Of a stretch of DNA of 64,000 bases, positions 769-32,972 are shown piece after piece. The stretch's first letter is position 1. Every line of letters begins with the position of its first letter. The notes under the pieces are model-generated. The model was not told the origin of the DNA. It did not search any database and worked only from the letters and a program-made list of their open reading frames with translations. The stretch comes from Halapricum salinum (GTDB taxonomy: Archaea > Halobacteriota > Halobacteria > Halobacteriales > Haloarculaceae), in NCBI RefSeq assembly GCF_004799665.1, contig NZ_CP031310.1, forward strand, positions 426,887-490,886, in the 5' to 3' direction. The position numbers were made by a program, and so were the translations under genes.

Positions 769-1661
769 TATCGAGCCACCCCCTCGAACTTGTACCAGCG
801 AAGCAGACTCAAGTTGAGCATGTAGGTGTTCATCAGGTCAGCGGCCAGCCCGAGCACCAGGATCAATCCGATGTCGGGCAGCAGGTCGATCGCGAAAAAG
901 AGCGCGACGAGCGTCATCGTGATCATCGCGACGATCGACGTGAGCGTCATCGTCACACCGGTCTGCATCGCCCGGTAGGTCGACTCGTAGAAACTCCCTC
1001 GGCGTCGCAGGATGTGGTTGTTGAGCAGGATGTCCGAGTCGACGGAGTACCCGATCAACATCAGCAGCGCTGCGACCGTCCCGAGGGTCATCTTGATCTC
1101 GATCAGCCCAGTCAGCGCCAGGAGATTGACGACCCCGATCGGGATCATGATGTCCGAGAACGCCGAGATGACGACCGCGATCGACGGCACGAACGATCGG
1201 AAGAGCACGAAGATGAGCGCGCTCATCCCGACGAACGCGACCGCGAGGCCGAACAGCGCGTTCTGGGTGTTCGTACTGCCGAACGCGGGCGAGCGCGTCG
1301 TCTCGGACTGAATGTCGAACCCGGCCGACCCGGCGGCGTCCCGGATCGCCTGGAGCTCCCCGGAGTTCTGCGTCAGGAACGTGACGATGTAATCGCCAGT
1401 CCCGGTCTGTCGAATTGATTCGATCTCCACGTCGACTCCCTGACCGAACGCCTCCTGGACGGCTGTCCGGCTGGAGGCGTCCGCGAGTCGTATTTCGGTG
1501 CCGCCGGTGAAATCGAACCCGAGCGGCGCGGGCGTCCCGTTGAGGAATAGGTAAACACTGATCAGCAGCAACGAAACCCCCAGGACTATCAGGGGGGGTA
1601 TCGCGAGCTGACGATTTGAGTACCGGTCGTAATCGATCTCCGGTACCTCGAACTCGACCAT
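768..1661 (-). CDS. secF: Preprotein translocase subunit SecF
   Basis: A 297-residue SecF, the partner of SecD in the export accessory complex. An N-terminal transmembrane helix (about 20-40) is followed by the conserved GFDFTGGTEIRL loop near residue 50, then an external domain and five more predicted helices ending in a short cytoplasmic tail. Length matches archaeal SecF. The start ATG at 1661 has a TATA-like AAAACTTATTC about 27 nt upstream, suggesting a leaderless message. It is the first gene of the secF-secD operon. Confidence 0.96.
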   Translation of the reverse strand: MVEFEVPEIDYDRYSNRQLAIPPLIVLGVSLLLISVYLFLNGTPAPLGFDFTGGTEIRLADASSRTAVQEAFGQGVDVEIESIRQTGTGDYIVTFLTQNSGELQAIRDAAGSAGFDIQSETTRSPAFGSTNTQNALFGLAVAFVGMSALIFVLFRSFVPSIAVVISAFSDIMIPIGVVNLLALTGLIEIKMTLGTVAALLMLIGYSVDSDILLNNHILRRRGSFYESTYRAMQTGVTMTLTSIVAMITMTLVALFFAIDLLPDIGLILVLGLAADLMNTYMLNLSLLRWYKFEGVAR

Positions 1662-1770
1662 GGGCGTGGGTGTGAGACGCCCGTGAATAAGTTTTCCTAA
1701 GTCAGTCTCCCGACCGCACGCCCCGAGAGCCCGGCGTGAGCGCTTTCACCGTCGAGGACCTACGATCGGT

Positions 1771-27837: not shown

Positions 27838-29541
27838 TCAATCTGCGACGCCCGTGCCCTCGCGATACGTCCCGTAGTGCCCCTCGAAGACGCGCATGAC
27901 CTCGCCCATCGTCGCCTGGGCTTTCACTGCGTCGACGATCGCGGGCATCGTGTTGTCCGCCCGCTCGATCGCGGCCTCGATCTCCGCCAGTGCGTCACGG
28001 ACAGCATCATCGTCGCGCTCGTCTTTGACCCGCGAGAGGCGTTCACGTTGGCGCTCCTGCACCGACTCGTCGACTGTGAGAATCTCGGTGTCTTCGTCGC
28101 CATCCGTGGTGTAGGCGTTGACGCCGACGACGGTCTCCGCTCCCTCCTCGACGCGCTGCTGGTACTCGTAGGAGGCGTCCTGGATCTCCCGCTGGAAAAA
28201 GCCCTGCTCGATTCCCCGAAGGACGCCCTCGCGCATCGAGCCATCTCCTTTCTCGCGGATCTCCTCGATGTAGTCCATCGCCTCTCGTTCGACCTCGTCG
28301 GTCAGTTTCTCGACGGCGAAACTCCCGCCCAGCGGGTCGACGATGTCGGCCGCGCCCGACTCCTCGGCGATGATCTGCTGAGTGCGAAGCGCGACGCGGA
28401 CGGCGTCCTCGCTCGGCAGTGCCAGCGCCTCGTCGTAGCTGTTGGTGTGAAGACTCTGGGTCCCGCCCAGCACGCCAGCCAGTGCCTGTAACGTGACGCG
28501 GACGACATTGTTTAGCGGCTGCTGTGCGGTCAGGCTCTGCCCCGCAGTCTGGGTGTGGAACTTGAGCTTGCGGCTCTGCTCGCGGTCGGCGTCGTACCAC
28601 TCGTCCATGACCCGGGCGTAGATCCGCCGTGCGGCCCGGAACTTGGCTACCTCTTCGAAGATCGAGTTGTGGCTGTTGAAGAAAAACGAGAGTTGCGGGG
28701 CGAACTCGTCGACGTCCAGCCCGCGGTCGATACAGTCCTCGACGTAGGCGAAGCCGTCTGCCAGAGTAAAGGCCAGTTCCTGGATCGCAGTCGACCCGGC
28801 TTCCCGGATGTGATAGCCCGAGATCGAGACGGGCTTGAACTTCGGTGTCTCCCCTACCGAAAATTCGATCACGTCGGTAACGAGCTTCAGCGACGGCTCT
28901 GGCGGGATGACCCACTCTTTCTGCGCGATGAACTCCTTGAACATGTCGTTCTGGAGGGTCCCTCGAAGCTGTTCGCGGGGGACACCGCGCTGGTCGGCCA
29001 ACGCGACGTACATCGCGTAGATCACCGGTGCAGAGGGATTGATCGTGAAGGAGGTCGAGACGTCCGCGAGGTCGATCCCGTCGAAGAGGATCTCCATGTC
29101 CGCGAGCGTGTCGACGGCGACGCCCTCGCGTCCGACTTCCCCCTCTGCCATGACGTCGTCCGAATCGATCCCCATCAGCGTCGGCATGTCGAACGCCGTC
29201 GAGAGGCCGGTCTGACCCTCCTCGATCAGGTAGTGAAAGCGCTCGTTGGTCTCCTCGACCGTGCCGAAGCCAGCGAACTGGCGCATCGTCCAGGTTCGCC
29301 CGCGATACATCGTCGGATAGACGCCCCGGGTGTACGGTGGCTCGCCTGGGAAGCCGAGGTGGTCGTCGTAGTCGAGATCCGCGATGTCTGCCGGGGTGTA
29401 CAGACGGTCGACCTCGTGGTTGGAGACGGTCGCGAAGCGGTCTGCCCGCTCGCCGTAGGAGTCGAGCACGGGATCGAGCGTCTCCTCGTCCCACTCGCGC
29501 TTTGCCTCGCGAATCCGCGACAACTCCGCCTCGTCGAACAT
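27838..29541 (-). CDS. Methylmalonyl-CoA mutase large (catalytic) subunit
   Basis: Catalyses interconversion of methylmalonyl-CoA and succinyl-CoA with adenosylcobalamin. The 567-residue protein carries the substrate-binding signatures YTRGVYPTMYRGRTWTMRQF, FDMPTLMGIDSDD, SGYHIREAGSTAIQELAFTL and HTQTAGQSLT. It ends before any cobalamin-binding domain, so the B12 subunit must be encoded elsewhere. This split architecture is normal in archaea. It precedes acsA on the same strand with 104 nt between, consistent with propionate metabolism. Confidence 0.95.
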   Translation of the reverse strand: MFDEAELSRIREAKREWDEETLDPVLDSYGERADRFATVSNHEVDRLYTPADIADLDYDDHLGFPGEPPYTRGVYPTMYRGRTWTMRQFAGFGTVEETNERFHYLIEEGQTGLSTAFDMPTLMGIDSDDVMAEGEVGREGVAVDTLADMEILFDGIDLADVSTSFTINPSAPVIYAMYVALADQRGVPREQLRGTLQNDMFKEFIAQKEWVIPPEPSLKLVTDVIEFSVGETPKFKPVSISGYHIREAGSTAIQELAFTLADGFAYVEDCIDRGLDVDEFAPQLSFFFNSHNSIFEEVAKFRAARRIYARVMDEWYDADREQSRKLKFHTQTAGQSLTAQQPLNNVVRVTLQALAGVLGGTQSLHTNSYDEALALPSEDAVRVALRTQQIIAEESGAADIVDPLGGSFAVEKLTDEVEREAMDYIEEIREKGDGSMREGVLRGIEQGFFQREIQDASYEYQQRVEEGAETVVGVNAYTTDGDEDTEILTVDESVQERQRERLSRVKDERDDDAVRDALAEIEAAIERADNTMPAIVDAVKAQATMGEVMRVFEGHYGTYREGTGVAD

Positions 29542-29833
29542 AGCCCGAGTTTATCGTGAAAAGCCATTAAGGATTGGGTGTGTCCCGACGTAGCTGCTGT
29601 GTCGAGCTGTCCGAAACGAAGAGAGGGGGCACAGGGGGGCCCGATCACCATGTCAGAAGCAATCGTTCTCGGGCACAGTGCGAGCCGACGTTTGCTCGCA
29701 TTGTTTACTCAATACCGAGTAATACTTGAATGGTTCTATTTCGGCCACGTTCGCCTATATAGATATACAATTAATATATACTTCTGCCCCCGAGGGGAGG
29801 TTTTTTGATCGTAAAGAAACAACATGGTAGATC
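29542..29833. other. AT-rich intergenic region with inverted repeat, TATA tracts and GC hairpin
   Basis: This 292-nt divergent region is unlike its GC-rich surroundings. TTACTC-AATACC-GAGTAA (29705-29722) is a perfect operator-like inverted repeat. CTATATAGATATAC and TTAATATATAC (29755-29781) are TATA-like tracts. CCCC-CGA-GGGG followed by AGG and six Ts (29787-29806) looks like a small terminator or attenuator stem. A short reading frame from 29650 (MSEAIVLGHSASRRLLALFT) exists, but I see no support for its expression. Confidence 0.55.
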
Positions 29834-30052
29834 ATGAGCGTCAATCGAGCGACAGGCGCGTGTATGTTCTGTGGGGGGAGCGGGGCCGAGAAGACGTGCG
29901 GACACTGCGATGGGGGCTATCACATCGCCTGCGCTCGGAAACGGGGGAATCTGCGCGTCGAGAAACACGGCAATGGGATCGTGAGTTCGGCACGACTCAA
30001 CTACGACTGGGAGTGCCCAAACTGCGGGGAGACGGCCCGCGGCGAGATGTAG
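29834..30052 (+). CDS. 72-residue PHD-finger-like zinc protein
   Basis: A small Cys-rich protein with eight metal-ligand candidates in C4HC3 order: C10-x2-C13, C22-x2-C25, H30-x2-C33, C61-x2-C64. There is an aromatic before the His (GGYHIAC) and Trp59 two residues before the last pair (WECPNC), exactly the hallmarks of eukaryotic PHD fingers. The spacing 8, 4 and 27 also fits. Arg/Lys-rich residues lie between (ARKRGNLRVEKHG). Its stop is next to the tmk stop on the other strand. The fold is inferred; the role is unknown. Confidence 0.75.
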   Translation: MSVNRATGACMFCGGSGAEKTCGHCDGGYHIACARKRGNLRVEKHGNGIVSSARLNYDWECPNCGETARGEM

Positions 30053-30053
30053 T

Positions 30054-30644
30054 TTACAGGCGCTGTCGGAGCTCTTCGACGATCGCCTGCTGGACGTCTT
30101 CCTGTGGTTGTTCGGCGTCGATTCGGACGAAACGGTCGGGTTCAGCTGCGATGAGGCGTTCGTAGTTGTCGGCCACGCGCTGGAGGTACGCGGCCTGTTC
30201 GAACTTGTTGGTCGTGCCGGCGCGCTTCGCGCCCACCTCTGGGTCGACGTCGAGGTAGAGGGTCAGGTCCGGGGGGCGTGTCCACGGTTCGTGAATTCGC
30301 TGGACGAACGAGAGGGCGTCCTCGATCCGTGGATGGTCGGCCAGCGTCGCCCCCTGGTAGGCGTACCGGGAGTCCGAATACCGATCGGAGACGACCAGTT
30401 CACCCTGCTGCAGTGCGGGTCGGATCACCGAAGAGAGGTGGTGGGCGTGATCTGCGGTATATAGGAATAGTTCGGCCAGCGAGTCCGCGCCGTCGTCGCT
30501 GATCGAGCGCGCGACGGCCTCACCGTACCACGAGTCGGTCGGCTCGCGTGTGAACGTCGTCTCCGCGTCGAGAGAGACATCGCCTAACGCCTCCCAGGCG
30601 CTTGTCTTGCCGCTGCCGTCGATCCCCTCCAGTGTGACGAGCAT
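30054..30644 (-). CDS. tmk: Thymidylate kinase
   Basis: Phosphorylates dTMP to dTDP. A 196-residue P-loop kinase starting [20 protein letters not shown] (Walker A at 7-14), with the DRY-type motif [15 protein letters not shown], the TMK substrate region [13 protein letters not shown] and a lid ERL region near the C-terminus. The ATG at 30644 is preferred over an upstream start adding an Arg-rich extension absent from the family. It is divergent from the SDR gene across 116 nt. Confidence 0.95.
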
Positions 30645-30725
30645 ACGCCGACGTCGGGCGGCAACGTTGTAAGACCGTCGTGATCGGTCCGCGACCCGCT
30701 CTCGCTCGCCCAAACTGTTTGCGCG

Positions 30726-31663: not shown

Positions 31664-31793
31664 CAAGATCTGCCACCCGTTCCGAATTCTTGTCGTTTTA
31701 CCATTATTTACAGGCAGTATCTGTTCTTAGAAATGATAGACGGGCACAAGGCTTTTAATGATTATACGTTTCTTTCTACCACGAGAACCACCT

Positions 31794-32972
31794 ATGAAGC
31801 TCGCGATGATCGGCTTCGGGCAGGCCGGCGGGAAAATCGTCGATAAGTTCCTCGAATACGACGAACGGACAGGCAGTGGAATCGTCCGCTCCGCCGTCGC
31901 CGTCAACACCGCCAAGGCAGACCTGCTCGGACTCGAACGTGTTCCGGACGAGAATCGCGTACTCATCGGCCAGGCCCGCGTGAAGGGCCACGGGGTCGGT
32001 GCAGACAACGAACTCGGCGCGGAGATCGCCGAGGAGGACATCGACGAGATCCAGAGCGTCATCGACAACATCCCGGTCCACGAAGTCGACGCGTTCCTGA
32101 TCATCGCGGGCCTGGGCGGCGGGACCGGCTCCGGCGGCTCGCCCGTCCTCGCCAAGCATCTCAAGCGGATCTACACCGAACCCGTCTACGGCCTCGGTAT
32201 CCTCCCCTCCAGTGACGAGGGCGGCATCTACACGCTCAACGCCGCCCGATCCTTCCAGACGTTCGTCCGGGAGGTCGACAACCTCCTGGTGTTCGACAAC
32301 GACGCCTGGCGCAAGACCGGCGAGTCCATGGAGTCGGGCTACGCCGAGATCAACGACGAGATCGTCAAGCGCTTCGGCATCCTCTTCGGCGCGGGCGAGG
32401 TCACCGGCGACGGCGAGGTCGCCGAGAGCGTCGTCGACTCCTCAGAGATCGTCAACACGCTCGCCTCCGGCGGCGTCTCCACAGTGGGATACGCAGCCGA
32501 GGAAGTAGAGAACAGCTCCGACGGCGGACTGCTCTCGCGCTTCAAGAGCGACTCAACCAACGACAGCATGGAGGCCGCGAACACGACCAACCGGATCACC
32601 TCGCTGGTCCGGAAGGCCGCGCTCGGCCGCCTGACGCTGCCCTGTGAGATCGACGGGGCCGAGCGCGCGCTGCTGGTGTTGTCGGGACCACCCAACGAAC
32701 TCAACCGGAAGGGGATCGAGCGCGGCCGGAAGTGGCTCGAAGAGCAGACCGGGAGCATGGAGGTTCGCGGTGGCGACTACCCCGTCTCCGAATCGGCGTA
32801 CGTCGCCTCGGTGATCTTGCTCTCGGGCGTGCACAACGTCCCCCGGATCAAGGAACTCCAGCAAGTGGCGATCGAGGCACAGGAGAATATCGACGAGATC
32901 CGCCAGGAAAGCGAAGAAAACTTAGAGCAGTTGGTCGAAGACGATGAAGATGAGCTTGATCCCCTCTTCTAA
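31794..32972 (+). CDS. cetZ: Tubulin-superfamily cell-shape protein CetZ
   Basis: A 392-residue GTPase of the CetZ family; in haloarchaea CetZ proteins control cell shape and motility. The N-terminal MKLAMIGFGQAGGKIVDKFL and tubulin signature GLGGGTGSGGSPV (about 107-118) bind GTP. The T7 region and the acidic C-terminal tail (EENLEQLVEDDEDELDPLF) are CetZ1-like. TATA-like elements lie at 31752-31768. Its end overlaps the next gene by 29 nt, suggesting coupled translation. Confidence 0.94.
   Translation: MKLAMIGFGQAGGKIVDKFLEYDERTGSGIVRSAVAVNTAKADLLGLERVPDENRVLIGQARVKGHGVGADNELGAEIAEEDIDEIQSVIDNIPVHEVDAFLIIAGLGGGTGSGGSPVLAKHLKRIYTEPVYGLGILPSSDEGGIYTLNAARSFQTFVREVDNLLVFDNDAWRKTGESMESGYAEINDEIVKRFGILFGAGEVTGDGEVAESVVDSSEIVNTLASGGVSTVGYAAEEVENSSDGGLLSRFKSDSTNDSMEAANTTNRITSLVRKAALGRLTLPCEIDGAERALLVLSGPPNELNRKGIERGRKWLEEQTGSMEVRGGDYPVSESAYVASVILLSGVHNVPRIKELQQVAIEAQENIDEIRQESEENLEQLVEDDEDELDPLF

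Follow-up and report, generated by a model that had tools for sequence, protein, structure and literature searches.

A haloarchaeal family of stand-alone C4HC3 micro-proteins, probably two-zinc fingers, with one clade beside cdrL-cdrS-ftsZ2

PHD fingers are regarded as a chromatin module of eukaryotes, and prokaryotes are known to have binuclear treble-clef fingers in the Prok-RING families of Pfam; we wondered what to make of a 72-residue haloarchaeal protein whose cysteines and histidine follow the PHD order. Its gene lies in the window, the 64-kb stretch of Halapricum salinum DNA analysed here (Table 1). The translation, MSVNRATGACMFCGGSGAEKTCGHCDGGYHIACARKRGNLRVEKHGNGIVSSARLNYDWECPNCGETARGEM, carries the ligands C10-x2-C13-x8-C22-x2-C25-x4-H30-x2-C33-x27-C61-x2-C64 around a C-D-x-x-Y-H-x-x-C core, with Y29 preceding H30 and W59 two residues before C61; frame, ligands, Tyr and Trp are exactly as a sequence-only reading of the locus had claimed. 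When all six frames of the 64-kb window were scanned with a generous PHD regular expression, a single match appeared; 60 third-order Markov shuffles of the window gave none. Conservation in other genomes, where a single-sequence query found homologues at E-values down to 1.5e-16, and codon-position GC (0.56/0.56/0.77, against 0.61/0.63/0.59 for an overlapping 113-aa frame) together indicate that the 72-aa ORF is a real protein gene.

Table 1. Features of the finger gene and its surroundings; positions are those of the window.
Feature	Position	Strand	Basis or remark
Methylmalonyl-CoA mutase-like gene, divergent, upstream neighbour	27838..29541	-	Name from sequence reading
AT-rich spacer with TATA-like runs; GC 39%, window as a whole 64%	29690..29833	.	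Putative promoter by sequence reading
72-aa C4HC3 zinc-finger micro-protein gene	29834..30052	+	ATG to TAG; translation, homologues that share its frame and ligands, codon-position GC
C10-x2-C13, first zinc knuckle (predicted site 1)	29861..29872	+	Invariant in 32- and 43-row alignments
C22-x2-C25, second knuckle at turn of predicted beta-hairpin (predicted site 2)	29897..29908	+	Invariant; AF2 strands flank it
H30-x2-C33, start of predicted helix (predicted site 1, treble clef)	29921..29932	+	Invariant; AF2 helix
27-residue linker with predicted beta-hairpin (E40-45/E54-60) and W59	29933..30013	+	AF2 secondary structure
C61-P-N-C64, last knuckle (predicted site 2)	30014..30025	+	Invariant, including Pro62
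Thymidylate kinase-like gene (tmk), convergent, abutting	30054..30647	-	Name from sequence reading; congeners keep this flank but lack the finger gene there
CetZ-like tubulin-family gene, 1.7 kb downstream of the finger gene	31758-32972	+	

Searching 292 Halobacteria genomes with the single sequence gave matches in 23, about 15 of them clearly members; after profile searches the stand-alone family counts 43 distinct members, 65-79 aa long, every one of which (43/43) reads C-x2-C-x(8-15)-C-x2-C-x4-H-x2-C-x(15-28)-C-P-x-C. The eight ligands and one proline are invariant in the 32- and 43-row alignments, an invariance that for the ligands is partly built in, because the 43-member set was chosen with a ligand regular expression; a family profile search that made no ligand requirement did turn up copies missing some ligands. 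The sequence-only reading had proposed a profile search for haloarchaeal homologues, with the His and Trp59 as the residues whose loss would count against it. The homologues exist, with all eight ligands in common, but for the two residues the outcome is divided. The His is invariant. The residue preceding it varies among members and the Trp is not conserved: the position two residues before the last Cys pair (-2) is W in 9/43 members, I or V in 26/43, F in 2/43, and L, T, G or A in the others.

Among the search candidates from outside Halobacteria, no member with all eight ligands was confirmed. The one candidate read there, a possible relative (L167, 452-718 (-)), has Cys in place of the His, giving eight Cys ligands; the sole contig-search match, from Anaerolineales (L075), lacks the His pattern, being a zinc ribbon, and was set down to chance. 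Proteins of about 300 aa with CxxC ribbons (L057-L065) are not family members either; their N-terminal ribbons, together with a likely membrane segment, are conserved across one haloarchaeal family. Three related small proteins (L160:1704-1946 (-), L161:1626-1835 (-) and L162:1654-1941 (+)) read HxxH at the second CxxC, and their H-x2-H-x4-H-x2-C pattern may represent a ligand swap. Plasmid and phage records held no homologue and no viral relative was found, so that a mobile-element gene is unsupported; PADLOC and PHROGs searches returned nothing convincing. The literature searched contains no description of this family or of the division-locus linkage described below, and no paper joining PHD fingers with haloarchaea; the family is apparently undescribed.

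To which known class does it belong? The window protein and its family have the C4HC3 order with PHD spacings. Their His is the fifth ligand, which is not the RING order (C3HC4 or C3H2C3), and they depart from the C1 pattern (H-x12-CxxC...HxxC-x7-C), having no conserved N-terminal His and a CPxC in place of the last single Cys. All 32 members compared with the Pfam PHD profile PF00628 matched it at E<1 (best 1.3e-6), and three of the ten members examined passed its cut-off (L014, L053b and L002, the paralogue in the window's own genome); across 145 haloarchaeal genomes PF00628 rose above its cut-off in five, each time at a family member, and across 14 control genomes in none. Some family members would already be flagged by the Pfam PHD model. 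Against PDB chains, the family profile found PHD fingers first (KMT2D 1.5e-6, UHRF1 3.2e-6, WSTF 5.4e-6), followed by C1 domains and SLX1.

The likeness to PHD fingers (PF00628, and PHD_4, PF16866) extends over the C4HC3 order, the CxxC spacings, the four or five residues before the His, the HxxC and the 12-46 residues before the last CxxC, with profile E-values in the 1e-6 range; in contrast to PHD fingers, the family consists of stand-alone archaeal micro-proteins without a chromatin context, has mostly I or V at -2, and carries a predicted beta-hairpin in its last linker. When the eight ligands were kept and the residues between them shuffled, a rough control of 24 sequences and one shuffle, the best PDB match weakened to 4e-4 (1.5e-6 before shuffling) and 10/24 sequences still matched PHD, compared with 32/32; since this removes most but not all of the signal, the PHD likeness is part spacing and part sequence. 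Judged by sequence, PHD is the best-supported class for the family, from which common descent with eukaryotic PHD fingers does not follow. The earlier description of the window protein as a PHD-type finger stands in its conserved ligand layout and its best sequence match. Calling it a "complete" PHD finger was too strong: the protein falls under every Pfam gathering score (PF00628, 16.6 of 24 bits; PHD_4, 25 of 30.6 bits, E 1.9e-5), and neither the Trp nor the residue before the His is a constant of the family.

Profiles for C1, Prok-RING_1 and SLX1_C match the family similarly well. Prok-RING_1 (PF14446), like the family a prokaryotic binuclear treble-clef class, matches 29/32 members, but the match spans the first three ligand pairs only and lies below the cut-off in the members examined. 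In C1 domains there is a His at the N-terminal side and the last Cys stands alone; with them (PF00130) the family shares the CxxC-xn-CxxC-x4-HxxC core, and one member (L008) passes the C1 cut-off, whereas the final position of the family is a CPxC knuckle. All eight ligands match the C-terminal C4HC3 domain of SLX1 (PF21202; 6seh residues 224-289 to profile positions 5-70, E 0.0013), although SLX1 is eukaryotic and the family members examined stay below the Pfam cut-off; the domain belongs to a nuclease that binds SLX4 (PMC4726241).

The window protein was modelled by AF2 at pLDDT 73 and pTM 0.51 (helix 31-37), and its own-genome paralogue, with 43 sequences, at pLDDT 81 and pTM 0.65 (hairpin 21-23/30-32 around C24/C27, and helix 33-38 right after H32, holding C35); in both, the second CxxC forms the turn of a short hairpin, and a helix from the HxxC, a longer hairpin and the CPxC come after it. 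Treble clefs run from knuckle to hairpin to helix and pair their HxxC with the first CxxC, and the family has this order, with eight paired ligands, in its predicted secondary structure. We infer from the models that HxxC would pair with the first CxxC here too: C10, C13, H30 and C33 would bind one zinc, and C22, C25, C61 and C64 the other. Foldseek returned no match at E<=0.001; the nearest structures were zinc ribbons (Rpp21, RNAP subunits and TFIIS; probability 0.7-0.9, TM about 0.4), with PHDs slightly below. The structure prediction and fold search suggested by the sequence-only reading thus yielded the knuckle-hairpin-helix order but, in Foldseek, no confirmation of the cross-brace.

That ranking leans slightly toward a different architecture of two sequential mononuclear sites, a rubredoxin-like CxxC/CxxC pair and then an HxxC...CxxC zinc ribbon, which would make the protein a double-zinc-ribbon variant with no cross-brace. 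Double zinc ribbons are common in haloarchaea, the DZR profile matches 25/32 members at E<1, and the paralogue's HxxC-x24-CxxC spacing resembles that of TFIIS-type ribbons. However, the HxxC is predicted at a helix start rather than in a knuckle, and PHD, C1 and SLX1 profiles outscore ribbon profiles for the family. Copies with lost ligands also bear on the choice. L016 (genome G037) keeps a full frame, its DNA is 82% identical to that of the intact L009, and 28/41 differences fall at third codon positions, so that it looks to be under selection; its C4 has become Y and its C8 F, with C1, C2, H5 and C6 intact. Joint loss of C4 and C8 would hit one site (C3/C4/C7/C8) in a cross-brace and damage both sites in sequential ribbons, although this is a single case and two random losses would be expected within C3/C4/C7/C8 about one time in five. 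A second copy (L015, G050), which has lost C3 and has its last knuckle out of frame, points more weakly toward the cross-brace as well. Because of the predicted secondary structure and the joint C4/C8 loss in one coding copy, we favour the two-zinc cross-brace and consider sequential ribbons somewhat unlikely.

Whether the sites bind zinc at all is touched by the haloarchaeal CPxCG micro-proteins (HVO_2753, HVO_0758, HVO_0649), which share small size, CPxCG knuckles and occurrence in Halobacteria with the family (PMC11241148). They differ in being described as C(P)XCG Cys fingers, and the family's NCBIfam matches to them are weak; 5 of 14 characterised CPxCG micro-proteins of H. volcanii bound no zinc (PMC11241148), which counts against the zinc-site reading. 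We put at roughly 0.6 the probability that the window gene encodes one of a family of haloarchaeal micro-proteins that stand alone and fold as a two-zinc C4HC3 cross-brace, binuclear treble-clef fingers of the PHD/RING class that would serve as compact protein-binding adaptors. A free-standing archaeal family of PHD class would bear on the origin of binuclear treble-clef fingers.

If the cross-brace fold is right, a zinc-stabilised protein-binding adaptor is the most likely role, at about even odds; such a finger would dock its partner along the hairpin and knuckles. PHD-class fingers usually bind proteins, which weighs against the main alternative role, nucleic-acid binding as a small zinc-finger transcription factor. 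The acidity usual in proteins of halophiles is reduced in the window protein (calculated pI 8.2, net +2), several of its relatives have a pI of 8-9.5, and small haloarchaeal zinc-finger regulators such as Brz are known (PMC2253796), all of which would suit a nucleic-acid binder. The clade linked to cdrL, however, is acidic, with net charges of -5 to -10, and we regard nucleic-acid binding as improbable for the family.

We wondered whether gene neighbourhoods point to a partner. Downstream of the own-genome paralogue (L101:5002-5226; G000:C1:1557004-1557225), and in the same orientation, come CdrL-, CdrS- and FtsZ2-like genes. Its clade (clade A) forms one branch of the tree (support 100/99), and in all 17 of its 17 members the finger gene immediately precedes cdrL-cdrS-ftsZ2 and shares its strand; the arrangement holds at all ten loci read at length, and at one of the 17 (L129) the cdrL start motif differs, with cdrS and ftsZ2 in place. 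The gene names come from comparing sequence motifs by eye with the locus described in the portions of PMC7439475 and PMC8406309 consulted, and those portions mention no finger gene upstream of it. In another genome (G131), a W-type family member is divergent from cdrL. The linkage gives a possible adaptor role a concrete direction: for the cdrL-linked clade, CdrL, CdrS or FtsZ2 would be natural candidate partners, and function is directly testable in haloarchaea, at a locus already shown to control division. It is conceivable, as a speculative extension, that haloarchaea have a stand-alone PHD-class reader lineage in which one clade is a third component of CdrL-CdrS-FtsZ2 division control, with the window copy as a duplicate that has another partner. 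Near clade II members in two genomes, L119:1571-1981 (+) and L120:5637-6191 (-) are similar genes (beginning MEISEQLRCLFSG... and MDIEGQLECLFSA...) and may be a shared neighbour.

Two more specialised roles fare poorly. A part in the archaeal ubiquitin-like (SAMP) system, as an E3-like adaptor of RING type, would fit the Prok-RING_1 matches (best 1.1e-7) and one family member that is convergent to a MoaD/SAMP-like gene, but that neighbour is the only such case, the fifth-ligand His gives the PHD order and not that of RING-HC or H2, and the Prok-RING_1 matches end before the last knuckle; we think it very unlikely. The neighbour itself (L069:4812-5075 (+)) is a ubiquitin-fold gene named from sequence reading. 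Least probable of all is a genuine PHD finger acquired from eukaryotes to read a modified protein tail, of histones or otherwise: the CxxCD-x2-YHxxC core, W(-2) and the PHD_4 E-value of the window protein speak for it, and against it stand the PHD_4 score under its cut-off, the W(-2) shared by few members, the want of a Foldseek fold match or of a confirmed eight-ligand member outside Halobacteria, and haloarchaeal histones that, to our knowledge, have no tails. Nothing on the functional side speaks for tail reading or E3 activity, and the proposal of a "new reader", histone tails included, is unsupported.

The window copy itself sits at a synteny breakpoint. The congeners examined have no finger gene beside tmk and differ in the other flank, and neither the window gene nor the relatives nearest to it showed conserved neighbours; the closest relative in the tree, L139 (weak support, 83/70), lies in an unrelated neighbourhood. 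Most simply, the copy was gained at the breakpoint; the alternative is its loss in the congeners. The window copy may be a laterally gained or relocated paralogue, with an acidic protein or nucleic acid as its possible partner. The CetZ-like gene was dropped as a linked neighbour, because CetZ stays near tmk without a finger gene in two congeners examined. Elsewhere, two family genes form a tandem pair (L053:1270-1470 and 1492-1692 (-)); the 1270-1470 gene, with 15/15 spacing, W(-2) and a score above the PF00628 cut-off, is the member closest to a canonical PHD finger.
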